DNA of 29,552 bases, taken from positions 1-29,552 of the IMG/VR virus record IMGVR_UViG_3300028388_002689. One strand, written 5' to 3'. Positions 2,198 through 25,800 of the stretch are shown here, in pieces; the stretch's first letter is position 1, and every line of letters starts with the position of its first letter. Source of the stretch: a virus. The notes beneath the pieces are model-generated. The model did not search any database. It was given only the letters and a program-made list of their open reading frames with translations, and was not told the origin of the DNA. The position numbers were made by a program, and so were the translations under genes.

Positions 2198-2199
2198 AA

Positions 2200-2778: not shown

Positions 2779-2792
2779 GTAGCGTTTGGCCT

Positions 2793-2819
2793 GCGTCTGG
2801 CCCCCTTTGGGCCAGGCGT
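2793..2819 (+). terminator. Strong hairpin after the second exported gene
   Basis: GCGTCTGGCCC (2793-2803) pairs with GGGCCAGGCGT (2809-2819) over eleven pairs, two of them wobbles, with loop CCTTT. Only short T-runs follow (TT at 2819-2820, TTTATT at 2831-2836). It resembles the hairpin after the capsid gene in having a GC-rich stem and a T-containing loop, so the two exported genes are bracketed by similar structures. Confidence 0.5.
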
Positions 2820-2836
2820 TTGGCCGACACTTTATT

Positions 2837-3172: not shown

Positions 3173-3888
3173 TGCCGGTTGCGTTGACTGTTGAGATGGA
3201 CAGGGAATCCGAGCGCGCGCTTTTCAATCAGATTGAACGTGCGCAGCGTGAGCTTGGAAAATCTCTGACACCTTCTATTCAGTGGGCCGCGCGCTTACTT
3301 TGCCGTTCTCTTTCTGGACACACAAAGCGGGCAAAGCAAAAACTTAGGAAGGTTGTTCAGAATCCAGATCAGAGATGGAAAACCGACAAGCGCCGCGCGC
3401 CGTTTGGTGTCATGGGATATAAAGATGGCAGAGAAAAGTTTATTCCAATCTATCGAACTGGCGAATATGGAAAACTGCGATTCTACGACAAGAAGACGCT
3501 TTCATGGTATGATAGGACAGAGAAGAAGTGGAAACGTATCAAGAGCGGGCCAGACGTTGCAAATCCAGGCATGATCATTCCTGGAATAATGGCAAGCCCA
3601 AAGCGCAGAGTCCCATATAGAGGATTGGCAAAGAAGGTTTGGCAGCGCGCGTCTTCATTCATAGGGCGTGGGGGTACTGCGCGGGCGATGGGTGTTTCAA
3701 ATGTCGCAACGGTTTGGATAGATCGAGACAAAGACAACCCGAGTGTGACAATCACCAATAAACTGCGCTATGCGATTGACGCTTTCGAGGGTGGCAGTTC
3801 TGCCGTGAGCGAAGCTATGGCCGCAGCCGGACGCCGCATGGAACACCTTATTGACAAGAAAATCGAAAAGAAAATGGGTGCGAAATGA
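3169..3888 (+). CDS. Neck or tail-completion protein (HK97 gp10-like position), putative
   Basis: 239 residues, highly basic, with two possible starts (ATG 3169 overlapping the upstream stop, and ATG 3172). The N-terminal helical part (MDRESERALFNQIERAQRELG) and the C-terminal segment (ITNKLRYAIDAFEGGSSAVSEAMAAAGRRMEHLIDKKIEKK) look like head-tail connector or minor tail proteins that close the tail tube. The middle contains a Lys/Arg/Tyr-rich region (KRRAPFGVMGYKDGREKFIPI). It sits between the stopper candidate and tail terminator candidate, in the order usual for siphoviruses. No exact family is recognised. Confidence 0.5.
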   Translation: MMPVALTVEMDRESERALFNQIERAQRELGKSLTPSIQWAARLLCRSLSGHTKRAKQKLRKVVQNPDQRWKTDKRRAPFGVMGYKDGREKFIPIYRTGEYGKLRFYDKKTLSWYDRTEKKWKRIKSGPDVANPGMIIPGIMASPKRRVPYRGLAKKVWQRASSFIGRGGTARAMGVSNVATVWIDRDKDNPSVTITNKLRYAIDAFEGGSSAVSEAMAAAGRRMEHLIDKKIEKKMGAK

Positions 3889-4367
3889 ACATTCCCGCTG
3901 CACTTGAACTAGCAATCGCCGACGTGATGAGAAATACGGCGGACGTTGGTAGCGGCACAATTATTCGGGCATGGCAGACGCTGACAGATGAACAGGTCAT
4001 AGCGATGAGCGGCGAGCGCCTTTTCCCAATGATTGATGTTCGCGCCAGCGCGCCGTCAACTGAAAACCAGATTACCTGGTATTGTGACGTTATGGTGCTT
4101 TGTGGAACGTACAACGACGACGATAAAAACCACTCGCAGATTTCTCTGCTATACGAGGCGGCGCAGACAACACTAGATGCTCTGCATAGCCAAATGATGA
4201 ACGGACAAACCGGAACGGCCTATGATCTATTCGTCGCCCGTATGGCGGAACTTTACCGGACATTTGTACTTGGCGGCTTTCAGATGGGCGGCGGCTCGCC
4301 ACCTTATGACGAGGGCGGCGTCAATTTCATGGGGCAATCCATACAGATACACTACTGCACAAGCTAG
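3885..4367 (+). CDS. Tail terminator protein, putative
   Basis: 160 residues, starting in an ATGA overlap with the previous gene. A helix-strand pattern (MNIPAALELAIADVMRNTAD ... GERLFPMIDVRASAPSTENQITWYCDVMVLC ... SLLYEAAQTTLDALHSQM) with an N-terminal helix, central strands and a long helix is what gpU-like tail terminators show. These form the ring that ends tail growth and docks the tail on the head. Order in the cluster supports this. No diagnostic motif is visible. Confidence 0.5.
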   Translation: MNIPAALELAIADVMRNTADVGSGTIIRAWQTLTDEQVIAMSGERLFPMIDVRASAPSTENQITWYCDVMVLCGTYNDDDKNHSQISLLYEAAQTTLDALHSQMMNGQTGTAYDLFVARMAELYRTFVLGGFQMGGGSPPYDEGGVNFMGQSIQIHYCTS

Positions 4368-4376
4368 GAGGGAATA

Positions 4377-5576
4377 ATGGCGGGAAGAAGGATAACGATC
4401 CTAGGGATGGGACCGAGTTCAAACGAACGCAAGCACGACATCGAGCGTTATTGCGTGAACACTGAGCTATGGGGTCTGAATAATGGATACCTGTTTTTCC
4501 CGCAACTTGACAAGAAGTGGAGCAGGTTCTTCGAGCTTCACAGTTACGACTATCTGAAAGGCTGGAAAAGCGGCGCGCCTTGCCATTTCTCTGCATTGCA
4601 TGGGCTAGATTGCGACGTTTACGCAACGCAACCACTGCCGATTATTGCAAAGCAGAAACTGGTTGACTTGGCCGCCATCGCGGATCACTTTGATTGCAAT
4701 TACTTTCTTGGTTCGCCGTCGCTCATGCTGATGGTTGCGCTATACGAGCACGATAACGGCCAGACAATCGACTATATACAATCATACGGGATTGATACAA
4801 GCGATCCTCAGCACGCGCAACAGCGCGCATCCTGGATGTTCTGGATTTCGCAGGCACACTCGCGCGGGATAAAACTTGGCGGAACAGCAACAGATTGTTT
4901 TGCAGAACGCGAAATTGATGAAGGCTTGATAGGTATGCGCGAGAATATTGGTGAGGAAATTGTGAAGCGTCGAGCGTCAAGAGCGCGCCCGCCCGTCATC
5001 GTAGCTGGGATGTTGCATTGCGGAACATCTATGCTGGCGCGTTGCTTGGCCGACGCAGGAATCAATATGGCGGGCAATAACGGCACAAACGACAATGCCG
5101 AGTGCATCGACATGATGAACGTAATACAAGCAGAATATCAGCGCCAAGGATTCAAGGCGCGCGAAGTGGACAACATGCTTGCTGCAGGTGAGGCTATCCC
5201 TAGCCCGACGCCAATACTTGCCAAGCATCTGCGCGAATACACGGCAACGCGGCGAACGGATGAGGCATGGGGGTTCAAGCATCCTTCGGCGTCAATGTTT
5301 GCGCCAGCATTTGCTGAGGTATTCCCAGAGGCAACGGTGATTCTTGCAACACGCAATGCAGAGGATCAGGCGGCATCGCGAGTTAGGCGCGGCATGGTGA
5401 GCCATGTAGGTGCAGGCGAAGCAGCATACCATGCGCGGCTGAAATACGCTTTGCAGAACTTTGCCAATGTTGTAATATACGACTACAACGGCAACCAAGA
5501 AGAAGAAAGCGAAAAACTAAGCAAGGCGTTAGGTGTCAAGGTTGACATCGGCGCGCGGTACATAACGAAGGAGTAA
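4377..5576 (+). CDS. Two-domain protein: Rossmann-like domain plus C-terminal sulfotransferase
   Basis: 399 residues; GGAGG lies at 4368-4372 before ATG 4377. Residues 5-180 start with a nucleotide-binding-like ILGMGPSSN turn and contain WGLNNGY, FFELHSYDYL and an LGSPSLMLMVALYE helix, resembling MptE/DUF115-type or phage glycan-related domains. Residues ~205-390 look like a sulfotransferase: 5'-phosphosulfate loop VAGMLHCGTSML (209-220), a WGFKHPS strand (298-304) and a 3'-phosphate region VILATRNAEDQAAS (321-334) carrying Arg326 and Ser334. Such enzymes move sulfate from PAPS to a hydroxyl or amine. It lies between tail terminator and major tail protein, a place normally reserved for structural genes. 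The target could be a virion or host-surface glycan; this is inference. Confidence 0.7.
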   Translation: MAGRRITILGMGPSSNERKHDIERYCVNTELWGLNNGYLFFPQLDKKWSRFFELHSYDYLKGWKSGAPCHFSALHGLDCDVYATQPLPIIAKQKLVDLAAIADHFDCNYFLGSPSLMLMVALYEHDNGQTIDYIQSYGIDTSDPQHAQQRASWMFWISQAHSRGIKLGGTATDCFAEREIDEGLIGMRENIGEEIVKRRASRARPPVIVAGMLHCGTSMLARCLADAGINMAGNNGTNDNAECIDMMNVIQAEYQRQGFKAREVDNMLAAGEAIPSPTPILAKHLREYTATRRTDEAWGFKHPSASMFAPAFAEVFPEATVILATRNAEDQAASRVRRGMVSHVGAGEAAYHARLKYALQNFANVVIYDYNGNQEEESEKLSKALGVKVDIGARYITKE

Positions 5577-5580
5577 GAAG

Positions 5581-6273
5581 ATGAGCTATGGAGCGACAAC
5601 CGACCCTTGGAGCTTTGCGGATACCACGATGCACTTGCAGAGCTACGAAGTAAACCCAGCGCCTGGTGGCGAAGCGCAGGCACAGGACAGCAACGGCGAT
5701 GTAGCGGCTAGCACAATGTATGACACCGCGAACTCGACCGTAAGCGCGACATACAAATCGTGCCGCGATGCGGCGCTTGTTCTGTACGATACGACCGCAG
5801 GCGTGGACTTCCGGCTTGGCAAGGTTATCGGCGGTAACGTCATCACAAAGATTGACGTTTCCACCAGCAACACCGACGGGCGTCCGACTATCGTCATTGG
5901 CGGCGAACACGCGCACGGCATCGCTGATTCGGCAATGCCGAAATATGATCCGAGCGACCTCGAAATTGCCATGACGCGCAAAGCAACCGCAATCGGCGTG
6001 ACTGTTGACACGGTGACAAACCTTCTAAGCTCAAGCGGTAGCGCGAGCGTTAGCGTAAGCAAAACACCAGACAGCAACGGAAACACCGCGTGCATGGATG
6101 TTTACGGTGGGCGCGTAGAGGCCAGCAATGAGTTGGTAGGCGTTACAGGTGCCGCTGGTGCCGCCGCCGCTGATACAAACTGGACTGTAAGCGCAGGCCC
6201 TTCAAACGCACAGACAAACACCGCATACGCAACCGGCAGCATCACCGTGTTCAAAAATCTGACCGCAATGTAA
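5581..6273 (+). CDS. Major tail (tube) protein
   Basis: 230 residues, starting four bases after the previous stop. The sequence is beta-rich with many Thr, Ser, Asp and Gly (MSYGATTDPWSFADTTMHLQ ... ASTMYDTANSTVSATYKSCRDAALVLYDTTAGVDFRLGKVIGGNVITKIDVSTSN), consistent with a tube protein. It ends in an Ala/Gly-rich strand region (GSITVFKNLTAM). Position before the chaperone-like pair and tape measure is diagnostic for the major tail protein. It would polymerise into rings around the tape measure. No Ig-like extension is evident. Confidence 0.7.
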   Translation: MSYGATTDPWSFADTTMHLQSYEVNPAPGGEAQAQDSNGDVAASTMYDTANSTVSATYKSCRDAALVLYDTTAGVDFRLGKVIGGNVITKIDVSTSNTDGRPTIVIGGEHAHGIADSAMPKYDPSDLEIAMTRKATAIGVTVDTVTNLLSSSGSASVSVSKTPDSNGNTACMDVYGGRVEASNELVGVTGAAGAAAADTNWTVSAGPSNAQTNTAYATGSITVFKNLTAM

Positions 6274-6282
6274 GGTGAGATC

Positions 6283-6453
6283 ATGCGAGAAGTTCTGACA
6301 AAAAAAGAAGTGATTGGCCCGCGCAAGGCCGCGCAAGCGGCCAAGGCGCAGGAAGGCAACAGTCTGGAAGATGAGCGAAAAGAAACATCTGCACCCGTTA
6401 GCGGAAGCGGAGATACAGGGACTAAAGACGGCGGGGATAGAACCGACGCTTGA
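6283..6453 (+). CDS. Small basic protein at the tail-chaperone position
   Basis: 56 residues (MREVLTKKEVIGPRKAAQ...), with AAGGTGAG just upstream (6272-6279). It overlaps the next gene, which lies in the +1 frame, by about 80 bases (from 6371) or up to 137 bases if the open frame from 6314 is counted. In siphoviruses the place between tube and tape measure holds a tail assembly chaperone pair (lambda gpG/gpGT) linked by a programmed frameshift. The composition is Lys/Ala/Gly-rich and probably disordered. It could be a reduced chaperone, or an independent small gene. It is shorter than usual chaperones, so confidence is moderate. Confidence 0.45.
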   Translation: MREVLTKKEVIGPRKAAQAAKAQEGNSLEDERKETSAPVSGSGDTGTKDGGDRTDA

Positions 6454-7081
6454 TGAATGTATCTGGATCAACGACTTAGCGCGCAAGGTTGACAATCCTG
6501 ACGGCGGCTCAACTACGGCAGCGGGCGAACCAGTGCAGGCTGGGAATGTGTGGCTATGGCCGTTTACCATTCAAGCCCGCATCTGGTACGTTCGCGTGTG
6601 TTCATGGTTTGACGACGTGCAGGACAGCAACGCCGTTCTCGCTTATGCTTTGGCACACTCGCGGATTGATGGTGCTTTTGAAAAGTTGAACACCTACGCA
6701 GCAATCAAGCAAACGTGTCTGCCGTGGTATGGTTCGCTTGCGTGCACCGATGATGAGCTCATCCAAGCGATTGATGCGGTAATAAGCACCGGCGTTGAGG
6801 ACTTACGAGAGCACGAAAAGAGCGAAAGCGGCAGCGAATCCCAGAGGGGATGGATGGATATTGTTGCGTTTCTTGTGCACCAAACAGGCATCCCGCCGGA
6901 GGCATGGACAACGCGCGTCACTTGTGATTATGTGATGCAGCAAGTGCGAACAGTTACCGCGCAAAGCAACGCAAACGGCGAAGCGCCAGATCCAGACGAT
7001 CCGTGTATAGTCGCGCAGCGCAACCTGGGAATCGCCATTTACAAGATCAAGCAATCGCGCAAGGAATCGGATGATGGATAA
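6371..7081 (+). CDS. Tail assembly chaperone-like protein
   Basis: 236 residues from ATG 6371 (MSEKKHLHPLAEAEIQGLK). The frame is open back to 6314, just after a stop at 6311, where only a TTG and arginine-rich codons occur. The protein is mostly helical and contains NVWLWPFTIQARIWYVRVCSWF and PDPDDPCIVAQRNLGIAIYKIKQSRKE. It is the gene immediately before the tape measure and overlaps its start by eleven bases. That position suggests an assembly chaperone that keeps the tape measure soluble. The ribosome site is weak (GGAAGG at 6351-6356), so expression by coupling or frameshift from 6283 is possible. Confidence 0.5.
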   Translation: MSEKKHLHPLAEAEIQGLKTAGIEPTLDECIWINDLARKVDNPDGGSTTAAGEPVQAGNVWLWPFTIQARIWYVRVCSWFDDVQDSNAVLAYALAHSRIDGAFEKLNTYAAIKQTCLPWYGSLACTDDELIQAIDAVISTGVEDLREHEKSESGSESQRGWMDIVAFLVHQTGIPPEAWTTRVTCDYVMQQVRTVTAQSNANGEAPDPDDPCIVAQRNLGIAIYKIKQSRKESDDG

Positions 7082-8639
7082 AAAAATACAGATTGTTTTA
7101 TCAGCAAAAAGCAAAATGAGCGCAGGGATAGCCGCCGCAAGAAAGCGATTGGGCAAGTTCTCCGCTTCGATGAAAAAGGCTTTTCTTGGCATAGCCGCCG
7201 CCGCCGGTACTGTTGCGGTAGGTTTCGCATCTTTGGCAAAGCGCGCGATTTCAGCATTTAGCATACAAGAAGATGCGGTCAAAAACCTAAGCGCAGCCAT
7301 AAGCCAAGTTGGCGAGGATGCTGATGCAGTAATTCCGAGGTTCAAAGCGTTTGCGGCAGAGATGCAAAAGCAAACCAAGTTTGGTGATGAGGCCATAATG
7401 TCAATAATGGCATACGGGAAGAATCTCGGTATTTCAACAGACAAGATGGAAATTGCCACACAAGCCGCGCTTGGGTTGGCGGCGAAGTTCAATATTGATT
7501 TGAAGACGGCAATGATGCTTGTCGGCAGGGCATCGCAGGGCCAGACACAGATGCTCACGCGCTATGGAATTGTGATGGAAGACACACTCACTCCACAGGA
7601 AAAGTTCAACAAACTACTTGCCATAGGCGCTGACAACTTTGGACTAGCACAGACGCAGGCCAAGACAACGGCGGGCCAGATTGAACAACTAAAAAACAAG
7701 TTTGGCGACGTGCTAGAAAAGATAGGCGCGGTTATTGTAAAGAGCGGAATATTTGAAAAGGCACTTACGTTTCTCAGCGAAAAGGTTGACATGCTGCTTG
7801 CTGGCGACAGGCTTCAAAAGTGGGCAGATAACGCAAAGACAGCATTTCAAGCGTTGGCTCCAGTTGTAAGCAAAATAGGCAAGGCGTTTTCATTCTTGAA
7901 GGGCGGCATCGAAAAAGGCGCCGCGTTTGCAGGCGCTCTTGCGGGGGGTTCAAGTTTCCGAGAGGCCGCCAACATGGCCAGAAATCAATCCTCGCCGTTT
8001 GCGTCTACGCAGCAGCAGGAAAAGGCATCGGCAGACGCCAGCGCAAAGATAATGAGTGATCTTGCGGCACAGAAGGTTGCACTTGAAAAAGAGGTTGCAA
8101 CGGCATCCGTAGACATAGACAAGGAAGCAATAGAAGCCAAGAAGAAACACGCAAAAGAACTTGCCGACACAATAAGAAAGCTAGAGCGCGAAAAGGCCGA
8201 TGAGATAGCGCGCCAAGAGGACGAAGCAAAGCAGGCGAGAATAGACGCAGCACAAGCGGCACTCGATAAGCAGAAAAAGGCCGCTGAGGAAGTGAAAAAA
8301 CTGGCAAACATGCGCGTCGCCGACTTCATCGAGCAGGCCAAGAAGGAAAAGGAAATCGAGGAAGAAAAGCAGGACGCACAAAAGCGCGCGACCAGGCTAC
8401 GCGAAAAGATAGACAGGGGCACCAAGCTATCGAAGAAAGACCGCGAGTTCCTGGATGCGTTCAAGGCGATAGAGGCAGCTCAGGAAAAAATCAAGGGTGG
8501 CCATGTAGCGGCAGACTTGCAGCAGAAAGAAGACGCATTGAGGCGCGCACAGGATAAGCAGCATAAGTCACTTATGAAGATTGAGGAAGAACTAAAGAAA
8601 ACAAGAGAAATGCAGAAAGAACTGCTTGCCCAGAAATAG
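7071..8639 (+). CDS. Tail tape measure protein
   Basis: 522 residues. Starts ATG 7071 or 7074, with AAGGA at 7061-7065; 7074 has the better spacing. The N-terminus (MDKKIQIVLSAKSKMSAGIAAARKRLGKFSASMKKAFLG) followed by a hydrophobic stretch (IAAAAGTVAVGFASLA, ~40-57), then the TAMMLVGRASQGQTQMLTRYGI and TTAGQIEQLKNKFGDVLEKIG patterns, are characteristic of tape measure proteins. The second half is a long coiled coil rich in Lys, Glu and Ala. Tail length scales with this protein at roughly 0.15 nm per residue, which would give a short tail of about 75-80 nm. It also enters the cell during DNA injection. Confidence 0.85.
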   Translation: MMDKKIQIVLSAKSKMSAGIAAARKRLGKFSASMKKAFLGIAAAAGTVAVGFASLAKRAISAFSIQEDAVKNLSAAISQVGEDADAVIPRFKAFAAEMQKQTKFGDEAIMSIMAYGKNLGISTDKMEIATQAALGLAAKFNIDLKTAMMLVGRASQGQTQMLTRYGIVMEDTLTPQEKFNKLLAIGADNFGLAQTQAKTTAGQIEQLKNKFGDVLEKIGAVIVKSGIFEKALTFLSEKVDMLLAGDRLQKWADNAKTAFQALAPVVSKIGKAFSFLKGGIEKGAAFAGALAGGSSFREAANMARNQSSPFASTQQQEKASADASAKIMSDLAAQKVALEKEVATASVDIDKEAIEAKKKHAKELADTIRKLEREKADEIARQEDEAKQARIDAAQAALDKQKKAAEEVKKLANMRVADFIEQAKKEKEIEEEKQDAQKRATRLREKIDRGTKLSKKDREFLDAFKAIEAAQEKIKGGHVAADLQQKEDALRRAQDKQHKSLMKIEEELKKTREMQKELLAQK

Positions 8640-8648
8640 GAGACTGAA

Positions 8649-8963
8649 ATGGCTTTGCGAGATACATCTTGGGCGGCGTCGAGCGGTAGCCCGCAGACCG
8701 CGAACGCCATATTGACAGACTACAAAACGATAGTCCAGCGCGCATATTTTTTCCCATCCGGCACCTATACGCGCACGCGGACAATCGTGACGCGGGAGTG
8801 GCTTGCAATGACACAAGCTGCGGCGACAAACGCGGTCGATACTCTGAACGCTGGCGATTCTACGGGATATGTGCAATATGAAGCGCAACAGACAAACATG
8901 ATAACCAATGCCTACAAGGTGATTCAGAATACGGACTCCTACGGAAACTGGACGGAAGTTTGA
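8649..8963 (+). CDS. Small tail-region protein, unknown function
   Basis: 104 residues with AGGAGA at 8637-8642 before ATG 8649. The start MALRDTSWAASSGSPQTANAIL is followed by a helical and strand mix with several aromatic residues (VQRAYFFPSGTYTRTRTIVTREWLAMTQ) and a C-terminus SYGNWTEV. No motif is recognised. Lying right after the tape measure, it may be a distal tail or tail-tip adaptor, or a small fibre-associated protein. Two bases separate it from the next gene. Confidence 0.5.
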   Translation: MALRDTSWAASSGSPQTANAILTDYKTIVQRAYFFPSGTYTRTRTIVTREWLAMTQAAATNAVDTLNAGDSTGYVQYEAQQTNMITNAYKVIQNTDSYGNWTEV

Positions 8964-8964
8964 T

Positions 8965-9306
8965 ATGGGATGGTTTCTAAAACGTAAGATGCAGAAGGGA
9001 ACGCCGGTTGCCGCAGTACCACACACGTTCTACAACGAAGTGGATGAGGTACTTTCCAAACTTGAAGTCTACAACGGCCACATTGAGCGCAATCAGACGA
9101 TATGGACAATCGTGCTCGACTCGCTAGGTTCAGAAAGCAATCCACTGAACAGTGAGCAAGTTGTGCGCGGCACCAAGGGGCTATTCAAGGTTATACTTTT
9201 GCGCGCTTATCTAACCGCTGATGACTCTCTTGTTGCGGTTGACGAATCATACGACGAAGGCACCATGTATCTATACCCGACGTGGGACTATCCAAGGGCC
9301 AGGTGA
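8965..9306 (+). CDS. Small tail-region protein, unknown function
   Basis: 113 residues (MGWFLKRKMQKGTPVAAVPHTFYNEVDEVLSKLEVYNG). A basic start leads into a helical segment and an acidic, aromatic C-terminus (DESYDEGTMYLYPTWDYPRAR). It sits between the previous small gene and the large exported protein, whose ATG overlaps its stop (TGATG at 9304-9308). A tail-tip role is inferred from position only. Confidence 0.45.
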   Translation: MGWFLKRKMQKGTPVAAVPHTFYNEVDEVLSKLEVYNGHIERNQTIWTIVLDSLGSESNPLNSEQVVRGTKGLFKVILLRAYLTADDSLVAVDESYDEGTMYLYPTWDYPRAR

Positions 9307-12014
9307 TGGTCATTTTTGTCATAACGCTTTTACTCGCGTCATCGTGCTACGGTTGGACTCAAGGCGAAGAACTTAGCGACCTGACGAACTGGTGGCCGAT
9401 CTATCGAGTCATGCGCGAGCGCTCAGTAATGAACATGCACGACGGAACGGCATGGAAGTGGCCAGGTGCCAACTACTACCTAGCGACATCAGGCTCCGCA
9501 CAGGTGAAACCAGACATTGATCCAACTTGGTACAACGCTGGCATATCGACAAATGGAGGTTGGATAAAGAGCGCGAAATACAATGCCGCCGGCAACGCAG
9601 ACACAACTGGCCGCGTCTATGACTTCACCGAGGGTGACGCACAGGCGCCGCTCATTGATTGGTTGCCGCGCGAGTTCCAAGCGCACATTTCGCAGTGGTT
9701 CAACGCGGGCCGCTTTATCGTGCAGGGCACCGAGACGAATTGGGACGGCGTACAAGGCGGCATCGAGCTTACTCTGTCAAACGCACTTGTATCGGCCGGG
9801 CTATCCTCAGACGGCGTGCGCGCGGCAAACTCTTATAGCAACGTGCCAGTGATAAATGTTTCTTCAACCGCAACAAACCTGACGCCAGACGTGTCCGGCA
9901 CATACGAGCTAACGCTGACGAACCTTTACACGAAATATACCGCAGGCGGCTCTAATGCGGTTGTATGGTTTGACGGCGCACCCGCTGGCCCTGATATATG
10001 GAATGTCGCGCTGACTGACGGCGGGGTTGGTTGGACAAACCTGCTTGTTGGCTATGATGAACTCATGGGCGATTATGCGCCAGACGCAGCCGGATATACT
10101 GGACTGATAACAATAGTAACAGGCACGCTTGAACGGTTGGAGGCAGAGTTTACTAACCGATGGATGGCAACCGGCGACATCGTTGGGTTATGGTTGCGTG
10201 ACGACGCTGCGGCGCTCTTGACAAATAGTGTCTATTCTGGTTGGTTCGAGCCGGATTTTGACGGATACACAGCAGAAGACGCGACAACGAATCTGCTAGG
10301 CCCAGAGAGTATTCCCGCCTATTTACGGAGCGGCAGTTATAGTCAGGTGGCAACTTGGGATGAGTATTGCCTGTTGAAACAATCCACGAACAAGGTGGAT
10401 CTGATTGTGTCCAACACTGTATCGCCAGAGTGCGATGGATGGTATTTGCGGGGGTTTGACGGATACTACGGGCGATTCTATCCGGCATATTCTACTCGAG
10501 TCGATATCGCTGGCAGCGGGTTTATCATTTACAATAGCACCAACGGATATATACGGGTTAGCTCATCCGATACCGCGCCGATGGTTGGATCATATACGAA
10601 TTGCAGCGGCCTTGTAACTAATCCGCCCTATGCGCGCGCGTTCTGGCAGATACGCAAGGACAGTGACACTGCATACGTCATTTATCGCAACGACACAAAT
10701 GAGTATCAGGTGGCGGTTACTGGTGACATTACGCCGAACATCACCGGCGTTTATACTGACGATGAGTTCCATTACGGGCCGAATGGCTCTTTCGATTACA
10801 ACCTTGCGCGCTATCCAGGAGAATCAAACTATCGCTTATATGAAACCGCAGGGCGCAGTATCTGGTTAGCACCAACAAACGGCGGCAGTCTAAATCCGGC
10901 AATCGGCGGCGAGTACGTTTATAATAACGACGACCTATACACCGGCGTAACGGTTAGCAACGCGCTCTATAGAACAAACCGCCTATTTTATGTCACCTAT
11001 TCATCGAACGCAACGGACATCGCAAATGCGCTTTGGTTCTGCGGCAACAGCAACGCACTTGATGAGCCGGTTGGCGTTTGGGAGCCGGTGAATCCTGGCC
11101 TCGTTACTGGTGAGCTCCATGGCGCCGTAGTCGAGTGGTCTGGCACCGGCGATACCATCTATGTGGAATATGAGCCACAATGGGCAGACCTAGATTTCAA
11201 CAGCGCGTCAGGATATGCGTATTGCATCCAGATGCCATCAGTGTATTCTAACACTTCGCTTGCAGGCACCTATGGCGGCATGGGTTCCTATACCGGCAAC
11301 ACCGCAGTTGTCGAAGTTGAATATTTCTACCGCGAAAGCACAAACGAGTTCGGGCCGTATGTTGCTATTGGCGACGCAACAGATGAGGGTGCAGGCTGCA
11401 CCGCATACGAGGGGCCGGGCTTTGTTTATGATGATTGGCCTTTTGACGATATTGACGACGGCGCCTTGACATATATTGCGAGCAATTATCCATCGTTGTA
11501 CGCATCAAATGTTGCAGCCATGGCCGGATTTGTGGACTCTGGATGGACTACGGGCGCCGATAAGGGCGGCCATTCGCGCGCCTTTACTTGGGATGCGTAT
11601 GAGGAACAATATGTGCCTGATCCGCCGTCGCCTGGTGGCGTAACAAATCAGATATGGTTGAACCTTTACGAATCCGACTCGAGGAAGTCTCCCGGCTGCA
11701 TCGTGGCGCAGAAGTTTGGCGACGGTTCAGCGGTTGCCGGTTCTCACGATTTGCCGAGCATTACGACGGTTTACCTGTTCACGCAAGCGGGTTATTATAC
11801 GAACACTTCAGGCTTGACGTATTCAGAGGGCAACAAGTTCCCAGAAACTGACGCCGATTTCATCAAGTTGCCAGAAACCAATGCCACCTATTTTGATTAC
11901 CTGTTTTCGGACATCACAAATAGCGGCGACCCAACCACATACGGTCCTTATGACGATGAGGGGATGACAACTAATTTTGTGGGCTGGACCATGACATTTG
12001 ACTTTGATAACTAA
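9306..12014 (+). CDS. Very large exported protein, beta-repeat, tail-tip or adhesin-like
   Basis: 902 residues from ATG 9306, chosen because it overlaps the upstream TGA and opens with a signal-type segment (MVIFVITLLLASSCYGW). The body is rich in Tyr, Trp, Asn, Thr and Gly. A module seems to recur: a strand with aromatic residues, then Y-x-IY-N, then P-x-x-x-G-x-Y. Examples are GSGFIIYNSTNGYIRVSS then TAPMVGSYTN; TAYVIYRNDTNEYQVAVTGD then TPNITGVYTD; and SIWLAPTNG then NPAIGGEYVY. This suggests a chain of small beta domains of ~60-80 residues, as in adhesins and receptor-binding tail proteins. Position between tail tube genes and fibre suggests host contact. No enzymatic motif was found. The signal peptide is unexpected. 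Confidence 0.6.
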   Translation: MVIFVITLLLASSCYGWTQGEELSDLTNWWPIYRVMRERSVMNMHDGTAWKWPGANYYLATSGSAQVKPDIDPTWYNAGISTNGGWIKSAKYNAAGNADTTGRVYDFTEGDAQAPLIDWLPREFQAHISQWFNAGRFIVQGTETNWDGVQGGIELTLSNALVSAGLSSDGVRAANSYSNVPVINVSSTATNLTPDVSGTYELTLTNLYTKYTAGGSNAVVWFDGAPAGPDIWNVALTDGGVGWTNLLVGYDELMGDYAPDAAGYTGLITIVTGTLERLEAEFTNRWMATGDIVGLWLRDDAAALLTNSVYSGWFEPDFDGYTAEDATTNLLGPESIPAYLRSGSYSQVATWDEYCLLKQSTNKVDLIVSNTVSPECDGWYLRGFDGYYGRFYPAYSTRVDIAGSGFIIYNSTNGYIRVSSSDTAPMVGSYTNCSGLVTNPPYARAFWQIRKDSDTAYVIYRNDTNEYQVAVTGDITPNITGVYTDDEFHYGPNGSFDYNLARYPGESNYRLYETAGRSIWLAPTNGGSLNPAIGGEYVYNNDDLYTGVTVSNALYRTNRLFYVTYSSNATDIANALWFCGNSNALDEPVGVWEPVNPGLVTGELHGAVVEWSGTGDTIYVEYEPQWADLDFNSASGYAYCIQMPSVYSNTSLAGTYGGMGSYTGNTAVVEVEYFYRESTNEFGPYVAIGDATDEGAGCTAYEGPGFVYDDWPFDDIDDGALTYIASNYPSLYASNVAAMAGFVDSGWTTGADKGGHSRAFTWDAYEEQYVPDPPSPGGVTNQIWLNLYESDSRKSPGCIVAQKFGDGSAVAGSHDLPSITTVYLFTQAGYYTNTSGLTYSEGNKFPETDADFIKLPETNATYFDYLFSDITNSGDPTTYGPYDDEGMTTNFVGWTMTFDFDN

Positions 12015-18142: not shown

Positions 18143-18268
18143 ATGAAACACCATGCCGCATCGCTGATTGTTGGTGAAACGGTGGCGCAGTTGCTGCCGG
18201 CCAACGCAACAAACTCAATCCCTTATTTCAGTGCGTGCGGCTGCGATTTACATGGAGTAGCTATATGA
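18143..18268 (+). CDS. Small protein, 41 residues, unknown
   Basis: ATG 18143 with AGGAGGG at 18130-18136. The product is MKHHAASLIVGETVAQLLP... ending FSACGCDLHGVAI. No motif beyond a short hydrophobic stretch and two close cysteines. Its stop overlaps the next ATG (ATGA at 18265-18268), which matches the coupling style of neighbouring genes and supports that it is translated. Confidence 0.5.
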   Translation: MKHHAASLIVGETVAQLLPANATNSIPYFSACGCDLHGVAI

Positions 18269-18465
18269 TCACAAAACAACAATTCAGATCAGCGCAGCGG
18301 GCGTATGACAACCAGACGCCGCCCGAGGATACCGAGGTGCCGTGTCGATGGTGCAGGGAATGGACGTGCGCGGATGTTGACAGGTGGGAGCGCGAGGGTG
18401 CCGCCTGCGTGGATAATTGTAAGTTTCTGCGCGAGTGGCTGGAAGCAGGAAAGGGGCAGGGATGA
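18265..18465 (+). CDS. Small Cys/Trp-rich protein
   Basis: 66 residues from ATG 18265 (MITKQQFRSAQRAYDNQTPPED). Cysteines in C-RW-C-REWT-C and later VDNC could bind zinc. It ends EWLEAGKGQG, the last five residues being encoded by the boundary sequence GGAAAGGGGCAGGGATGA (18448-18465), which also supplies the next gene's start. Confidence 0.55.
   Translation: MITKQQFRSAQRAYDNQTPPEDTEVPCRWCREWTCADVDRWEREGAACVDNCKFLREWLEAGKGQG
18448..18465 (+). repeat. Boundary repeat, copy 1
   Basis: GGAAAGGGGCAGGGATGA. It encodes the end of the upstream gene (GKGQG stop) and the ATG at 18462 of the next. The core GAAAGGGGCAGGGATGA recurs exactly at 18970, 20837 and 21966, with a truncated copy at 19539. Confidence 0.9.
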
Positions 18466-18986
18466 AACCGATAAAAGCATGGCATTTCGTGGGCGACAGA
18501 CTGAGAGACGGCAGACCCGTCCCGAAGGATGGTGTGACGCTGAAGCATGACGGCGAGATAGAGCTCTGTGAAAGCGGCCTCCACGCAAGCAAGCGATTGA
18601 TTGACGCGCTGCAGTATGCGCCAGCAAGTACGCTATGCAGGGTTGAGTGTGGAGGCGAGATAATCCACGGCGACGATAAGTTGGTATGCACCGAGCGCAC
18701 GATCTTGTGGCGAGTCGATGGCAATGCGTTTTTGCGTCGAGCGGCTTGCATGTTTGCCTTGGAGGTGAAGCATCTTTGGAATATGCCTGAGATCGTTGAG
18801 CGTTATCTAACGACTCAGGACGAGAATATACGTTCGGCAGCACGTTCGGCATCAGATTGGGCAGAACTTTCGGCAGCACGTTGGGCAGCAGATTCGGCAG
18901 CAGGTGTGGCAGCACGAACAAAACAGAACCGCATAATCACAGCGATGGCGGTTGCGGAGCACAGGAAAAGAAAGGGGCAGGGATGA
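18462..18986 (+). CDS. KAWHFV-type phage protein (DUF7666-like), paralog A
   Basis: 174 residues beginning MKPIKAWHFVGDRLRDGRPVPKDG. The conserved N-terminal ~115 residues include ELCESGLHASKRLIDALQYAPASTLCRVECGGEIIHGDDKLVCTERTILWR, a pattern I remember from phage and prophage proteins of unknown function (DUF7666, by recollection). After NMPEIVERYLTTQDE comes an Ala/Ser/Trp repeat (SAARSASDWAELSAARWAADSAAG), then a basic end EHRKRKGQG. It is followed at once by a close copy (18983-19582). The low-complexity part varies most between copies. Function unknown. Confidence 0.65.
   Translation: MKPIKAWHFVGDRLRDGRPVPKDGVTLKHDGEIELCESGLHASKRLIDALQYAPASTLCRVECGGEIIHGDDKLVCTERTILWRVDGNAFLRRAACMFALEVKHLWNMPEIVERYLTTQDENIRSAARSASDWAELSAARWAADSAAGVAARTKQNRIITAMAVAEHRKRKGQG
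18970..18986 (+). repeat. Boundary repeat, copy 2
   Basis: GAAAGGGGCAGGGATGA, identical over 17 bases to copies 1, 3 and 4. It encodes the KGQG stop of paralog A and the ATG (18983) of paralog B. Confidence 0.9.
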
Positions 18987-19582
18987 AACCGATAAAAGCA
19001 TGGCATTTCGTAGGCGATAAATTGAGAGACGGCCGACCAGTGCCGAAGGATGGAGTGACGCTGAAGCATTACGGCGAGATCGAGCTCTGTAAAAGCGGCC
19101 TCCACGCAAGTAAGCTGTTGATTGATGCGCTGAAGTATGCACCAGCAAGTACGCTATGCAGGGTTGAGTGTGGAGGCGAGGTTATCCACGGCGACGATAA
19201 GCTGGTCTGCACCGAGCGGACAATATTGTGGCGAATAGAAAGCGATATGTTTATGCGTCGTGCTGCTTGCAGGTTTGCGTTGGAGGGAAAGCATCTTTGG
19301 GATATGCCTGAGATCGTTGAACGTTATTTGACGACTCATGATGAGAATATGCGTTTGGAAGCATATTCGGCCGCAGCTTCGGCATCGGCAGCATGTTCGG
19401 CATCGGAAGCATATTTGGCCGCAGCTTCGGCATCGGCAGCATGTTCGTTATCATTTTGGGCATCGGCAGCATGTTCGTCAGCACGAACAAAACGGAACCG
19501 CATACTCACCGATATGGCGGTTGCGGAGCACAGGAAAAGAAAGGGGCAGGCTTGCAGCGGTACGGAAAGTCCCCGCAAATAG
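18983..19582 (+). CDS. KAWHFV-type phage protein (DUF7666-like), paralog B
   Basis: 199 residues from ATG 18983. The first ~115 residues are nearly identical to paralog A (MKPIKAWHFVGDKLRDGRPVPKDG ... VERYLTTHDENMRLEAY), proving tandem duplication. The repeat part is different: ASAACSASEAYLAAASASAAC, Ala/Ser/Cys-rich, encoded by near-repeats of TCGGCATCGGCAGCATG. The end reads RKRKGQACSGTESPRK, because the boundary repeat is truncated at 19539-19550 and the frame runs on. Longer than A by 25 residues. Confidence 0.65.
   Translation: MKPIKAWHFVGDKLRDGRPVPKDGVTLKHYGEIELCKSGLHASKLLIDALKYAPASTLCRVECGGEVIHGDDKLVCTERTILWRIESDMFMRRAACRFALEGKHLWDMPEIVERYLTTHDENMRLEAYSAAASASAACSASEAYLAAASASAACSLSFWASAACSSARTKRNRILTDMAVAEHRKRKGQACSGTESPRK
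19346..19493 (+). repeat. Ala/Ser-coding near-repeats in paralog B
   Basis: Short units such as TCGGCATCGGCAGCATGTTC recur around 19378-19397, 19429-19448 and, degenerate, 19457-19476. Each encodes ASASAACS-type residues. Unit order and spacing differ from the corresponding part of paralog A (18836-18922), which indicates repeat turnover since duplication. Confidence 0.7.
19539..19550 (+). repeat. Truncated boundary repeat
   Basis: GAAAGGGGCAGG followed by CTTG instead of GATGA. The upstream flank (CGGTTGCGGAGCACAGG...) is the same as at copy 2 because the paralogs were duplicated together with it. The start codon part is missing, so paralog B runs past it. Confidence 0.8.
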
Positions 19583-19608
19583 ACAGAACCAAACAAAGGA
19601 GAATGAGG

Positions 19609-19794
19609 ATGCACGATCAGCAAACACCAGTAGACAGAAGCACGCCAAATGAACAGGAAATAGAAAACATCAAGACGGCAATCAACAACCTGATATGGAT
19701 GTACGCACCGCACCATTCAACATTGGAGCAATGCGAGTACATAGCATCGAAGATGTTGTCTATGGTCATGTACCCGGCGGATTATCAGGAATAA
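19609..19794 (+). CDS. Small protein, 61 residues, unknown
   Basis: ATG 19609 lies seven bases after AAAGGAG (19595-19601); ATG 19603 is in frame but too close to it. The product MHDQQTPVDRSTPNEQEIENIKTAINNLIWMYAPHHSTLEQCEYIASKMLSMVMYPADYQE is helical with a C-terminal amphipathic segment. Preceded by the octamer GACAGAAC (19582-19589), also seen at 19806, 20820 and 21846. No family recognised. Confidence 0.5.
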   Translation: MHDQQTPVDRSTPNEQEIENIKTAINNLIWMYAPHHSTLEQCEYIASKMLSMVMYPADYQE

Positions 19795-19857
19795 CCGTCC
19801 CATTAGACAGAACGAGAGCAACGCCGCACCAGCGGCAGAGGCGGAAGGAGAGACAAA

Positions 19858-20853
19858 ATGAAGTGTTTTTATCACAACGACCTAGACGGACATGCGGCTG
19901 GATTTTGCGTCCACGCATGGGCAGGGATACATGGGGCACACGACCAGAACAACTGCATGAAACCGATCAACTACGGGAAGCCGTTTCCATTTGAAGAGAT
20001 ATTGGCCAACGAGCAGGTTTGGATCGTCGATTATTCGATTGAGCCGGACGAGATGCGCAGGTTGCTGGAAATCACGCAGAACGTGTACTGGATCGACCAT
20101 CACAAAACAGCCATCGAGAAATATAGCGACTTTGACATCCAGATCCCCGGATACCGTTGTGACGGAGTTGCTGGGTGTGTCTTGACGTGGGAGTACATGC
20201 ATTGGCATTCAGGACGCGGGAGCAACCCAGTAATCCTCGAGGGTATGCCTGATACGCCAGAGATAGCAAAGGATTACCCTGTGCCAGAGATGATCAAGCT
20301 AGTTGGAGACAGGGATGTGTGGGCGTGGAAGTTTGGCGACACAACAAAGCATTTCTTTGCTGGGGCGCAGATGCACGACACGTCTCCTTCTTCAGAGTTC
20401 TGGTGGCGTTGCATGGAACACGAAACTAAGGACCTACCGTTGCCCAATACTGGAAACAGAGATGCCCGTATCCGAGGTGAAAAGTGGTGGGCACAGTTAT
20501 TGCATGACGGTGAAACTATTGAACGCTACAAGGCTCAAAGCGACAAGGGCGTCAATGAATCTATCGGGTACGAAGTAGAGTTTGAGGGCTATCGTTGCTT
20601 TGCCTGTAATCGTGCACGGGTAAGTTCAGATCGTTTTGGGGGCCTTGATGATCAATACGACATCCTGTTGCCGCATTACCACGACGGCAAACAATGGACG
20701 GTTAGCCTGTACTCGAAGACGGTGGATGTAAGCGAGATCGCAAAGGCAAGAGGCGGCGGGGGACATAAAGGGGCAGCAGGATTCCAGTGCTCATCCCTTC
20801 CGTGGATCGATAGCAAATCGACAGAACAGAGCAACGGAAAGGGGCAGGGATGA
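19858..20853 (+). CDS. DHH/DHHA1 family phosphoesterase
   Basis: 331 residues. Motifs in order: HNDLDGHAAG (6-15), VDYS (57-60), IDHHKT (79-84) carrying the DHH, then a long insert and the substrate-binding DHHA1 signature GGGGHKGAAGF (299-309). This family includes nanoRNases and cyclic-dinucleotide or linear-dinucleotide phosphodiesterases, which need Mn or Mg. All main metal-binding residues are present, so it is probably active. An AAGGAG lies at 19845-19850. It ends SNGKGQG through boundary repeat copy 3. The substrate is not known; short RNA recycling, or removal of nucleotide signals, fits an early phage gene. Confidence 0.8.
   Translation: MKCFYHNDLDGHAAGFCVHAWAGIHGAHDQNNCMKPINYGKPFPFEEILANEQVWIVDYSIEPDEMRRLLEITQNVYWIDHHKTAIEKYSDFDIQIPGYRCDGVAGCVLTWEYMHWHSGRGSNPVILEGMPDTPEIAKDYPVPEMIKLVGDRDVWAWKFGDTTKHFFAGAQMHDTSPSSEFWWRCMEHETKDLPLPNTGNRDARIRGEKWWAQLLHDGETIERYKAQSDKGVNESIGYEVEFEGYRCFACNRARVSSDRFGGLDDQYDILLPHYHDGKQWTVSLYSKTVDVSEIAKARGGGGHKGAAGFQCSSLPWIDSKSTEQSNGKGQG
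20836..20853 (+). repeat. Boundary repeat, copy 3
   Basis: GGAAAGGGGCAGGGATGA, identical to copy 1. It encodes the end of the DHH gene and the ATG (20850) of the next gene, and is preceded by GACAGAAC at 20820-20827. Confidence 0.9.
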
Positions 20854-21065
20854 GCCGATTCATAATAAACAACGACAGCAAACTCCCCGATGAAACAGCG
20901 ATTGCTATGGTTTGCGAAGTCATTGACAAGGGCAAGATCAGCAACTATGGCAAGCAATATTGCTATGCGACAAGATACGCAACGGCAGAAGTGTATGCAG
21001 ACCTGAGAAGAAGCGGCACGCACAGCTTCCGTGTAGTAGATCCACAGAAAGGCAATAAGGAATGA
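20850..21065 (+). CDS. Small conserved phage protein, unknown
   Basis: 71 residues (MSRFIINNDSKLPDETAIAMVCEVIDKGKISNYGKQYCYATRYATAEVYADLRRSGTHSFRVVDPQKGNKE). The FIINNDS start with a following helix and GK.YCY..R strand resembles small phage proteins I have seen with unknown role. The start comes from the boundary repeat; the stop overlaps the next ATG. Confidence 0.55.
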   Translation: MSRFIINNDSKLPDETAIAMVCEVIDKGKISNYGKQYCYATRYATAEVYADLRRSGTHSFRVVDPQKGNKE

Positions 21066-21484
21066 GCAAAGAACAACAACCACTATTCAGTTGCGTGAAC
21101 TGCCGTGAGGATTACTCATGGCCCGAGTCTGACCTGCGGGTTTACGAAGGTGAACTCTGGTGTCAGATCTGCTTTGATGAGTCGGACATGGTTTGGAGAG
21201 ACAGTCTTTTGATCTGGTCAGATCTGCCGCCGTTTGTGCCAGAGTTCAAAAAGCGCATAGCCGACCTTGAGGCCGAGCTGGCCGAGGCACAGAAGGGCAG
21301 CGAAATGCTGGTTTATGATGTGCTCACGGCGCAGACGGAGCTTGACGCTGTGAATGCCCATATTGATTCGCTTTGCCAATCCAAAAACATAGACACAACG
21401 CTGCCAAGAGTGATGAAGTTAGAGTTGATTGCAGCAACAGAAACGGCGGTGATCAAAACGTCGCAGGCGGCACTGGCTAGGTAA
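21062..21484 (+). CDS. Zinc-ribbon and coiled-coil protein
   Basis: 140 residues. CVNCREDYSWPESDLRVYEGELWCQICFDE forms a treble-clef-like zinc ribbon (two CxxC pairs, residues ~11-14 and 34-37). It is followed by a coiled coil (PEFKKRIADLEAELAEAQKGSEMLVYDVLTAQTELDAVN). Function unknown; zinc plus coil suggests an adaptor or nucleic-acid contact. Starts in an ATGA overlap. Confidence 0.55.
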   Translation: MSKEQQPLFSCVNCREDYSWPESDLRVYEGELWCQICFDESDMVWRDSLLIWSDLPPFVPEFKKRIADLEAELAEAQKGSEMLVYDVLTAQTELDAVNAHIDSLCQSKNIDTTLPRVMKLELIAATETAVIKTSQAALAR

Positions 21485-21513
21485 GGCAGCGGAACGACAG
21501 AGGGGGCGACGAA

Positions 21514-21882
21514 ATGAGCTACGACACAATGGACAAACTACAGATAGAAATTGGTGGGTGGGGAGAGCGCACGTTCAAACATCACCTTGAGTGTTTGCCA
21601 GCTATCCACGCTCATCTCGCCGAAGAGGTAGAGGAGCTTGAAGAGGCGATAACGTGCCATCTCGACAGCACGCTCGACTATAAAGGAAGCGTAGCCGAAG
21701 AATGCGCCGACGTGTTCATTCTTCTGTGCAGCATCGCTCACCTATGCGGGATCAATCTTCGGCAAGCCGTCAATTTGAAGATGGCAGAGAACCATGCTCG
21801 CAAGTGGGGAAAGCCGGAAGCTGACGGCAGGATTCATCACGTTCCGACAGAACCTTGCAAACAGGAAGGAGAGCAGCGATGA
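21514..21882 (+). CDS. MazG-like nucleotide pyrophosphohydrolase
   Basis: 122 residues with the all-alpha NTP-PPase pattern: HLAEEVEELEEAI (34-46, E37/E38 and E41), then EECADVFILLCSIAHLCGI (62-80, acidic E62, E63, D66), a third helix and the closing KMAENHARKWGKPEADG. These enzymes hydrolyse NTPs or dNTPs to NMP and pyrophosphate; in phages they can protect against mutagenic or modified nucleotides, or lower host alarm signals. It ends in an ATGA overlap. AGGGGGCG upstream is a fair ribosome site. Confidence 0.75.
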   Translation: MSYDTMDKLQIEIGGWGERTFKHHLECLPAIHAHLAEEVEELEEAITCHLDSTLDYKGSVAEECADVFILLCSIAHLCGINLRQAVNLKMAENHARKWGKPEADGRIHHVPTEPCKQEGEQR

Positions 21883-22070
21883 GCGCAAAGGACAAGCAAC
21901 GGCTGGACTGGTTGCAGCGGCACTTGCGAAGCACAGCGAAACGACAGACAAGGAGGCGACGAAAGGAAAGGGGCAGGGATGAGCAACATCCACGACAAAG
22001 CATACCTGGTGCGCTGTACGCAGTGCGGGCACAAGTTCAAAACGAAGTCCTACCGTCCATGCTGCTCTAA
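21879..22070 (+). CDS. Small basic protein, likely truncated remnant
   Basis: 63 residues (MSAKDKQRLDWLQRHLRSTAKRQ...). The DKQRLDWLQ start is frequent in small phage proteins, but here the sequence turns into an Arg-rich tail and reads through boundary copy 4 in a different frame. Its stop at 22068-22070 lies inside the next gene. I suspect the original C-terminus was lost at the boundary insertion. An alternative frame through 21982 ends in KGKGQG but has no start codon after 21882. Confidence 0.4.
   Translation: MSAKDKQRLDWLQRHLRSTAKRQTRRRRKERGRDEQHPRQSIPGALYAVRAQVQNEVLPSMLL
21965..21982 (+). repeat. Boundary repeat, copy 4
   Basis: GGAAAGGGGCAGGGATGA with the ATG at 21979. Just upstream stands an older ribosome site AAGGAGG (21950-21956) with GCGACGAAA behind it, the same leader that precedes ATG 21514, so the repeat appears placed between a normal leader and its start codon. 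Confidence 0.9.
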
Positions 22071-22110
22071 GTGCAAGGCCAAGGGCAAGGTGGAGTACGT
22101 CGAGAAATGA
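21979..22110 (+). CDS. Small zinc-ribbon protein, 43 residues
   Basis: MSNIHDKAYLVRCTQCGHKF... with CTQC (13-16) and CCSKC (28-32), two knuckles spaced as in a rubredoxin-like zinc ribbon, then a basic tail. Start supplied by boundary copy 4. Its stop overlaps the next ATG (22107). Too short for gene finders that use longer limits, but motif and coupling support it. Confidence 0.6.
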   Translation: MSNIHDKAYLVRCTQCGHKFKTKSYRPCCSKCKAKGKVEYVEK

Positions 22111-22798: not shown

Positions 22799-24322
22799 AT
22801 GTACGCCTACTTCATAAACGGAAAGCAGCACCAGCAACGCGAAAAGCCAACGCATAGCGATGGCGACTGGTGGCTGCATTTCGATGAGGCCGCGCACACC
22901 TACACAGACTCAAACGGCGTTCGATATATGAGCGCAACCGCGTTTGTTGCATCGCTACACGAACCGTTCAACGCTATGCAGGCCGCGATTGAGTGCGCTA
23001 GTAGTACCGCTGACAAGTGGCAAGGGCTGGACACGGCTGACGCTGTTCTTGGGCGTTGGGAAGATCAAGCCAACGAGGGCAGCAAGCTACATGCGGCGAT
23101 TGAGGAGATGATTTGCAAATGCTACAACCAAGGCGACAACCTATTATATCAGCCGCTAATTGAGCAGTTCTGCGATTGGGCTAACATATATCGATGCGAT
23201 AATAAGATGCGCTCAGAAGTGATCCTGTGGTCACGCTCGCTTTGTATTGCTGGAACGTGCGACATCCTAACTGCTTGCAAAGACGAGATAATACTTGACG
23301 ACGTAAAGACCTACTCCAAACTAGATTATGATCGCCAGACAAAGGCCGCAGAGCAGCTAACGCTATACGCCATGATGGTTGAGGAGATGACCGGACACGC
23401 GGCCCAGGTCGGCGGCATTGTGCTTTATGAAAACTACTACGAACTACGCAACAAGTGCGTGATGCGTTTTGTGGAGATGAAGGACAGGCGCGACCAAATG
23501 CAGCCCGCAATCTGGGCGCGCGAGTATAAAGTGCGGGCAAAAAAGGAGGGCGAAGAAATGGCGCTCAATATCACAAATGGAGCGGGCCACAAGCCTGCGC
23601 GAGTAGTTGTCTATGGTACGGAGGGCATCGGCAAGTCTACGTTTGCAAGCCGCTTCCCAAAGCCGGTATTCATTGACACGGAGGGTAGCACTGTCGAGAT
23701 GGACGTGCAGCGTTTGGAGACACCGCGCGATTGGCAGGCGGTTATCGACTTGTTGCGCGATGTGTACGCAGAGGATAGCGTGCCTTTTAAAACGCTTGTA
23801 ATTGACACAGTTGATTGGCTAGAAAAGGCATGCGCTGCGATGGTTGCAAAGTCAAAAGGCAAGAAAAACCTTGCCGACATCGGTTATGGCAAAGGCGAAC
23901 TTGCGCTTGCCGAAGAGTTCAAGCGCCTACTTGATGGACTTGACGCGATCCAATCAAAGCACAACTTACATATAGTGCTAACGGCGCATAGCTGGGTGAA
24001 ACACTTTGACCCGCCAGACATGCCAGAGGGTTTCGATCGCTACGAACTAAAGCTGACGAAGCACGTTGCGCCGCTTGTGCGTGAATGGTGCTCGATGCTC
24101 TTGTTTGCCAACTTCTCGAGCCAAGCGCGCAAGACTGACAGCGGCAAGGCCAAGGGCGTGGGCGACGGGAACACGCGCTATATCTACACGCAGCGCACCG
24201 ACGCATTTGACGCCAAGAACCGGCACAACATGGAGCCGGTGTATAGGTTCGCTTATTCGGAAATTGCGCCGTTTATCGAGGGCACGGAAACAGTAGCAGC
24301 AACAGAAGAAGGAGACAAGTAA
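22799..24322 (+). CDS. PD-(D/E)XK nuclease fused to Sak4-like RecA ATPase
   Basis: 507 residues. Part 1 (~1-250) is a RecB/Cas4-like nuclease: EGSKLHAAIEEM (93-104), AGTCDIL (151-157, D155), ILDDVKT (165-171, D168 and K170) and QLTLYAMMV (186-194). Part 2 (254-507) is a Sak4-like annealing ATPase: VVVYGTEGIGKSTFASRF with Walker A (273-281), IDTEGST, Walker B TLVIDTVDW (332-340), then VLTAHSWVKHFDP. An exonuclease and an annealing protein normally act as a pair in phage recombination; here one chain carries both. AGGAGGG precedes ATG 22799. An internal start gives the ATPase alone (see 23558). An SSB-like gene follows. Confidence 0.8.
   Translation: MYAYFINGKQHQQREKPTHSDGDWWLHFDEAAHTYTDSNGVRYMSATAFVASLHEPFNAMQAAIECASSTADKWQGLDTADAVLGRWEDQANEGSKLHAAIEEMICKCYNQGDNLLYQPLIEQFCDWANIYRCDNKMRSEVILWSRSLCIAGTCDILTACKDEIILDDVKTYSKLDYDRQTKAAEQLTLYAMMVEEMTGHAAQVGGIVLYENYYELRNKCVMRFVEMKDRRDQMQPAIWAREYKVRAKKEGEEMALNITNGAGHKPARVVVYGTEGIGKSTFASRFPKPVFIDTEGSTVEMDVQRLETPRDWQAVIDLLRDVYAEDSVPFKTLVIDTVDWLEKACAAMVAKSKGKKNLADIGYGKGELALAEEFKRLLDGLDAIQSKHNLHIVLTAHSWVKHFDPPDMPEGFDRYELKLTKHVAPLVREWCSMLLFANFSSQARKTDSGKAKGVGDGNTRYIYTQRTDAFDAKNRHNMEPVYRFAYSEIAPFIEGTETVAATEEGDK
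23558..24322 (+). CDS. Sak4-like ATPase alone, from internal start
   Basis: ATG at 23558 is in frame with the fusion and preceded by AAGGAGG (23543-23549) at ideal distance. It would give 254 residues (MALNITNGAGHKPARVVVYGTEG...), about the normal length of stand-alone Sak4-like proteins, which begin just before the Walker A strand. The ribosome site looks like an ancestral gene start kept after the nuclease lost its stop, or a device to make extra ATPase. Confidence 0.65.
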   Translation: MALNITNGAGHKPARVVVYGTEGIGKSTFASRFPKPVFIDTEGSTVEMDVQRLETPRDWQAVIDLLRDVYAEDSVPFKTLVIDTVDWLEKACAAMVAKSKGKKNLADIGYGKGELALAEEFKRLLDGLDAIQSKHNLHIVLTAHSWVKHFDPPDMPEGFDRYELKLTKHVAPLVREWCSMLLFANFSSQARKTDSGKAKGVGDGNTRYIYTQRTDAFDAKNRHNMEPVYRFAYSEIAPFIEGTETVAATEEGDK

Positions 24323-25449: not shown

Positions 25450-25800
25450 ATGAACAAGGTATGCGTACAATGCGGTGCTGAGTTTGATGCGCGCGGCAGG
25501 AGTAAAACTTGCGGGAAGAAGTGTGGGCGTGAGCGTGAGCGTGAGCGTGATCGTGAGTGGAAGCGTGAGCGATATGCAACAGACCCAGCGTATAGGGAGC
25601 GAAAGCGTGAGCGTTATCGTGAGCGATATGCAACAGACCCAGCGTATAGGGAGCGAAGGCGTGAGCGGAATCGTGAGCTATATGCAACAGACGCAGTGTA
25701 TAGGGAGCGTGTGCGTGAGCGTGCGCTTGAGCGTCACTATAACAAATCCAACGCATGCGACTTCTTCCGCACACTAGCAATGGCAGACGCCATAAAGTAA
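25450..25800 (+). CDS. Zinc-knuckle protein with Arg/Glu tandem repeats
   Basis: 116 residues. The N-terminus has CVQCGAEFDARGRSKTCGKKC (C5, C8, C21, C25), a zinc knuckle seen in phage proteins and HNH-type genes. The middle consists of repeats RERYATDPAYRERKRERYR, RERYATDPAYRERRRERNR and RELYATDAVYRERVRERAL, three 18-residue units encoded by 54-base DNA repeats. Highly charged helix; likely binds nucleic acid. No HNH site follows. Confidence 0.6.
   Translation: MNKVCVQCGAEFDARGRSKTCGKKCGRERERERDREWKRERYATDPAYRERKRERYRERYATDPAYRERRRERNRELYATDAVYRERVRERALERHYNKSNACDFFRTLAMADAIK
25571..25732 (+). repeat. Three 54-base tandem repeats
   Basis: Units begin near 25571, 25625 and 25679 with ATATGCAACAGAC.CAG.GTATAGGGAGCG. 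The first two are nearly identical; the third has diverged more. GTGAGC hexamers also repeat at 25528-25560. They encode the YATDPAYRER helix repeats. Confidence 0.85.

Follow-up and report, generated by a model that had tools for sequence, protein, structure and literature searches.

The window, by which we mean the whole stretch of 29,552 bases of a virus contig that was analysed, contains four exact copies of the 17-mer GAAAGGGGCAGGGATGA, all on the + strand and confined to the region of non-structural genes. The first copy (18449..18465) closes an ORF at 18265-18465 (...EAGKGQG*) and opens a DUF7666 gene (gene a; 18462..18986, +, 174 aa; Pfam PF24703, E 2.4e-13), and the second (18970..18986) is the junction between gene a and gene b (18983..19582, +, 199 aa), a tandem duplicate of gene a that matches it at 89% in the first 300 nt. 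The third (20837..20853) joins a gene for a DHH-family phosphoesterase (19858..20853, +; phrog_4771, E 1.4e-38) to a 71-aa ORF (20850-21065), while the fourth (21966..21982) opens a zinc-ribbon-like ORF of 43 aa (21979..22110, +; weak Pfam matches below the cut-off) and lies 3' of a second Shine-Dalgarno (SD) sequence, AAGGAGG (21950). A fifth copy at 19539-19555 has three mismatches and an intact stretch of 12 nt at its start, leaving a shortened motif, GAAAGGGGCAGG, at 19539..19550 (+). At up to three mismatches, five matches were found in the window vs. 0.06 in shuffles, which confirmed the four exact copies and the truncated one listed in the earlier note. As 17 bp is shorter than the usual assembly k-mers, we regard misassembly as an unlikely source of these copies.

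The 17-mer is made up of an SD sequence, GAAAGGGG, a spacer of 5 nt (CAGGG), which is an ordinary length, and an overlapping ATGA. In all four exact copies the ATG of the next ORF is supplied within this overlap, just as had been claimed. Each of the four exact copies has a predicted SD duplex with the 16S tail of -11.7 kcal/mol, a value that ranks in the upper third among 40 leaders when calculated with a generic anti-SD, which may not be that of the host. In other phage contigs of IMG/VR the 15-mer core was located between two open frames of at least 50 codons in 22 of 104 cases, vs. 6% for random ATGA, an enrichment implying that it is a usable, ordinary ribosome site. No excess of sigma-70-like promoters or terminators was detected in the 17.4-24.5 kb region, so these genes are likely to form an operon; no Rfam RNA family was matched, and no tRNA was found. 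The 17-mer likely serves translational coupling inside this operon. These data agree with the proposal that the junction does not reflect protein homology, as the same coupled stop, SD and start is common to unrelated genes. The statement that the upstream frame is always closed by KGQG and a stop held at 18449, 18970 and 20837; at 21966, however, a plausible upstream gene reads through the motif.

Three of the five sites are closely linked. A direct repeat of 300 nt (89%) begins exactly at 18449/18970, and a repeat of 88 nt (90%) finishes exactly at the '...GGGGCAGG' of 18970/19539. When genes a and b were aligned together with their flanks, the left edge of homology coincided with the motif's first base, with no clear homology further upstream, and the right edge fell after GAAAGGGGCAGG; that is, the duplicated DUF7666 block is bounded on both sides by the same short sequence. 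The sites at 18449, 18970 and 19539 are thus the start, middle and end of one tandem duplication, and the coincidence of its edges with the motif implies that at least 12 nt of the motif flanked the gene on both sides before the duplication. In the simplest history, X-motif-a-motif-Y would have become X-motif-a-motif-b-motif-Y, after which the rightmost motif would have lost its final 5 nt. The earlier count of four junctions between unrelated genes stood in that unrelated genes do share the motif, but not as a set of independent junctions, since these three sites stem from one event. The 3' halves of the two DUF7666 genes (18830-18913 and 19351-19482) contain arrays of short repeats of 12-48 nt that encode Ser/Ala-rich sequence and whose number differs between a and b. 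No DUF7666 relatives were found in genome_contigs.

The copy at 20837 lies at the very end of the DHH gene. Residues ~317-331 of the protein (...IDSKSTEQSNGKGQG) extend past the point where conservation in the family ends, and they contain the motif, giving the window protein a tail of 15 residues whose last ones are KGQG. When C-termini were compared, none of 13 DHH relatives carried KGQG, and most of them stop within ~10 residues of an ELPF-like end (...GFQCKELPF or equivalent); one relative (L019) has an unrelated C-terminal extension past the conserved end. The absence of the tail from the relatives implies that the motif at 20837 sits in added sequence.

On the other hand, the surroundings of the copy at 21966 are less clear. 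A short ORF with a strong SD (21879..22070, +) has a good start at ATG 21879, overlapping the stop of a MazG-like gene; it reads the motif as RRRKERGRDEQ, ends at 22070 and may be a truncated gene. The frame that ends in KGQG (21794-21982) is without a supported start, even though its codon score is higher than that of the 21879 ORF, and we consider it doubtful as a real gene. The motif at 21979 had been described as standing between an ordinary leader and the start codon, as if inserted. Indeed, this leader resembles the one at 21514 (GGGGCGACGAAATGAGC vs. GGAGGCGACGAAA[...]ATGAGC; score 31); but ~0.3 pairs as good as this one are expected by chance among 666, and the likeness is only suggestive.

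Together, these observations point to what is probably, as far as can be judged from the sequence, a single translation-initiation junction that short-repeat duplication has multiplied locally and that was retained for coupled translation. In this junction the last four codons and the stop of one gene overlap an extended SD, GAAAGGGG, followed by the 5-nt spacer and the next ATG, and a ribosome finishing the first gene could restart on the second via ATGA. All the copies would descend from one sequence duplicated within the small-gene region of the phage: the DUF7666 duplication would have arisen by slippage or annealing between two short repeats, and the 20837 and 21966 copies by further local copying or together with small inserted genes. 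The copies would be retained because each of them keeps its downstream gene translated and coupled. The second SD upstream of the 21966 copy and the ambiguity of its upstream gene count against this reading. The finding is real and non-random, albeit modest: a copied junction and one gene duplication bounded by the motif. It represents a small case of the repeated start-site sequences known in phages, with no evidence of a dedicated gene-cassette system.

Among known elements, the closest functional match is the Start-Associated Sequences (SAS) of cluster K mycobacteriophages, a 13-bp sequence present in 11-19 copies per genome, kept across many phages and accompanied in about half of the cases by a 17-bp inverted repeat (PMC3203893). 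Both are short asymmetric SD repeats located a few nt before the ATG of non-structural genes only; SAS are mostly in one orientation, sometimes include the upstream stop and are not found in the host. The 17-mer is likewise in one orientation and can include the upstream stop, and it is rare in a likely host phylum. In contrast to SAS, the 17-mer spans 17 bp including stop and start, occurs as four exact copies in one phage and shows no inverted repeat; by inspection, GAAAGGGGCAGGGATGA did not match the SAS consensus GGGATAGGAGCCC at up to two mismatches (consensus from PMC3203893). This likeness raises the alternative of a cis-regulatory start under active, sequence-specific selection of the kind proposed for SAS, either because a phage factor binds it or because it tunes the translation of some of the genes. 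Such a role would account for exact conservation beyond the bases that pair with the 16S tail, CAGGG included, for the restriction of the motif to the non-structural region and for its being unchanged between DUF7666 copies that have diverged by 11%. We nevertheless consider it unlikely: there are just four exact copies, two of which open the duplicated DUF7666 genes; at 11% divergence, 17 positions would all stay unchanged with a chance of ~0.14, which is unremarkable; and neither ESAS-like inverted repeats nor any other companion element was seen.

For the DUF7666 duplication, the closest match is the gene 67/68 region of phages Island3 and Brujita, where a boundary repeat of ~50 bp was recognized by comparing the two phages (PMC3029335, which also cites earlier proposals that conserved boundary sequences are recombination points). 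There, as here, the C-terminal codons of two neighbouring genes lie in a repeat, and its position on either side of a gene accounts for the gain or loss of that gene; the present repeat differs in its length, 12-17 bp, and in that the inference comes from a single genome. If our interpretation is correct, the window offers a natural example of a gene boundary acting as the duplicated unit, with stop, ribosome site and start all contained in the repeat; any event beginning and ending in it thus leaves both neighbour genes expressed. Phage mosaicism via recombination at boundary repeats thereby becomes testable at a single site, on the evidence of one genome.

The earlier note went further and proposed a portable cassette junction, in which the 17-mer is a recombination handle and small genes are exchanged between phages while remaining translationally coupled. 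This idea is favored by the different gene pairs that flank the motif, by the duplication edges falling at it and by a fused exonuclease/Sak4-like annealing protein encoded beside the region in one ORF (22799..24322, +; phrog_124, E 1.2e-44; phrog_298, E 2e-20). Further support comes from one of the only two other IMG/VR contigs with the exact 17-mer (L005 and L006, unrelated genes): L005 has a second site, AGAAGGGGCAGGGGTGA, that also closes a frame with KGQG and is followed by a gene opening with GTG. In L006 the gene after the 17-mer looks like a putative prohead protease, from its sequence and position. However, neither contig shares any gene of the motif region with the window, two such contigs are about the chance level by our own estimate for a collection of this size, and a second exact copy of the 15-mer was found in none of the 106 IMG/VR stretches carrying it. 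The search in other phages thus did find the 17-mer beside different genes, but the portability claimed for it is not supported. A dedicated system would combine a multicopy site across genomes with a recombinase of its own; no second contig with multiple copies of the 15-mer was found in IMG/VR, and no integrase was identified among the proteins scanned around the motif region, which are part of the window genes. We therefore regard exchange of cassettes between phages as improbable.

The length of the repeat bears on the same question, and on the shuffling of cassettes that had been suggested. The minimal pairing length is 31-34 bp for RecA and 23-27 bp for Red-beta (PMC3945230), and Sak4 by itself is a weak annealase, that of HK620 being aided by its SSB (PMC5928155). 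Since 17 bp is below these minima, efficient recombination at the motif is unlikely, although rare events of slippage or annealing do not require such efficiency. The exonuclease/Sak4-like fusion is a possible agent of short-homology recombination; that the stop/SD/start junction serves as its short-homology handle, with small genes being gained, duplicated and lost as coupled units, seems to us quite improbable.

A very improbable explanation is convergence, either by the independent evolution of a good SD in ATGA overlaps or because the 17-mer is a common ribosome site of the host. While the motif is a functional-looking SD, drawing leaders from the base composition, column by column, of the 36 remaining starts gave an expectation of 0.0009 identical pairs and 1e-7 identical triples among 39 leaders, and the latter value leads us to reject convergence. 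In addition, the synonymous codons for KGQG are identical at all four sites (P ~1e-4 for two further independent copies). Regarding the host, MCP relatives were found in Planctomycetota bins and an isolate, and on this basis we searched the phylum of Thalassoglobus as a likely host phylum: AAAGGGGCAGGGATGA occurred exactly in one of 149 genomes, and five genome bins that contain MCP relatives yielded a single occurrence at up to one mismatch, so the alternative raised in the note, a 17-mer common at host ribosome sites, does not apply to this phylum. Finally, selection for KGQG as a C-terminal protein tag, although (G/R)KGQG ends three genes, can be dismissed given that the same synonymous codons are used, the less used GGG and GGA included, that nucleotide identity extends past KGQG into ATGA and the upstream GA, that a stop just 5' of the 17-mer leaves KGQG untranslated at L005:8455 and in L006, and that the DHH relatives lack the tail.

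With regard to the phage itself, blastn against 50,697 phage records revealed no close relatives. MCP relatives were 62-80% identical in IMG/VR and 46-75% in genome bins, several of them Planctomycetota, and their fragments end short of the motif region; queries with the MazG-like protein and with ORF 21062 gave no relative. Since none of these searches produced a relative sharing the gene order of the window, what stood at each junction before it received its copy was not seen, which counts against the reading of local copying. One contig (L164) with a phage major-capsid relative (75%) is in a Candidatus Thermoplasmatota bin and was probably misbinned, as the other relatives are mostly from Planctomycetota.

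To place the motif in context, leaders (40 nt plus 6 coding nt) of non-homologous genes were compared within 94 phage fragments. At least one non-homologous gene pair reached a score of 33 or more in 13 of the fragments, and at least three pairs did so in 3/94 (L013, L068 and the window), implying that repeated leaders are uncommon, though not unique to the window. Of 135 loci, only the window and L068 have 14-mers ending in ATGA with at least three occurrences. L013, the fragment on which the closest DHH relative is encoded, is much richer in repeated leaders, with shared terminator-like and SD blocks; many of its genes at 567-10702 have the common leader blocks TTTTGAAAGGAGAA, ATTATGGAAAC and AACAAGGGCTCTTTCTTTTT. 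In L058 a repeat of ~27 nt, CACAAAGAAGCCAAGCGGGTAAAGGAG, precedes two non-homologous starts (6108 and 6579) and is a possible boundary repeat. Like the window, the unrelated phage fragments L013, L058 and L068 have an SD-bearing leader common to several non-homologous genes; their sequences differ from the 17-mer, and L013 has terminator-like and longer blocks.

Within the window, GACAGA or GACAGAAC is found upstream of the SD in leaders of consecutive genes (19582, 19806, 20820, 21496, 21846 and 21943). All four occurrences of GACAGAAC in the window lie in leaders (19582, 19806, 20820 and 21846), but as a longer shared leader this box was rejected as marginal (~0.03 after correction for 589 repeated 8-mers). 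Outside the motif region, tandem repeats of 54 nt at 25543-25733 code for an Arg/Glu-rich stretch that follows a Cys-rich N-terminus.
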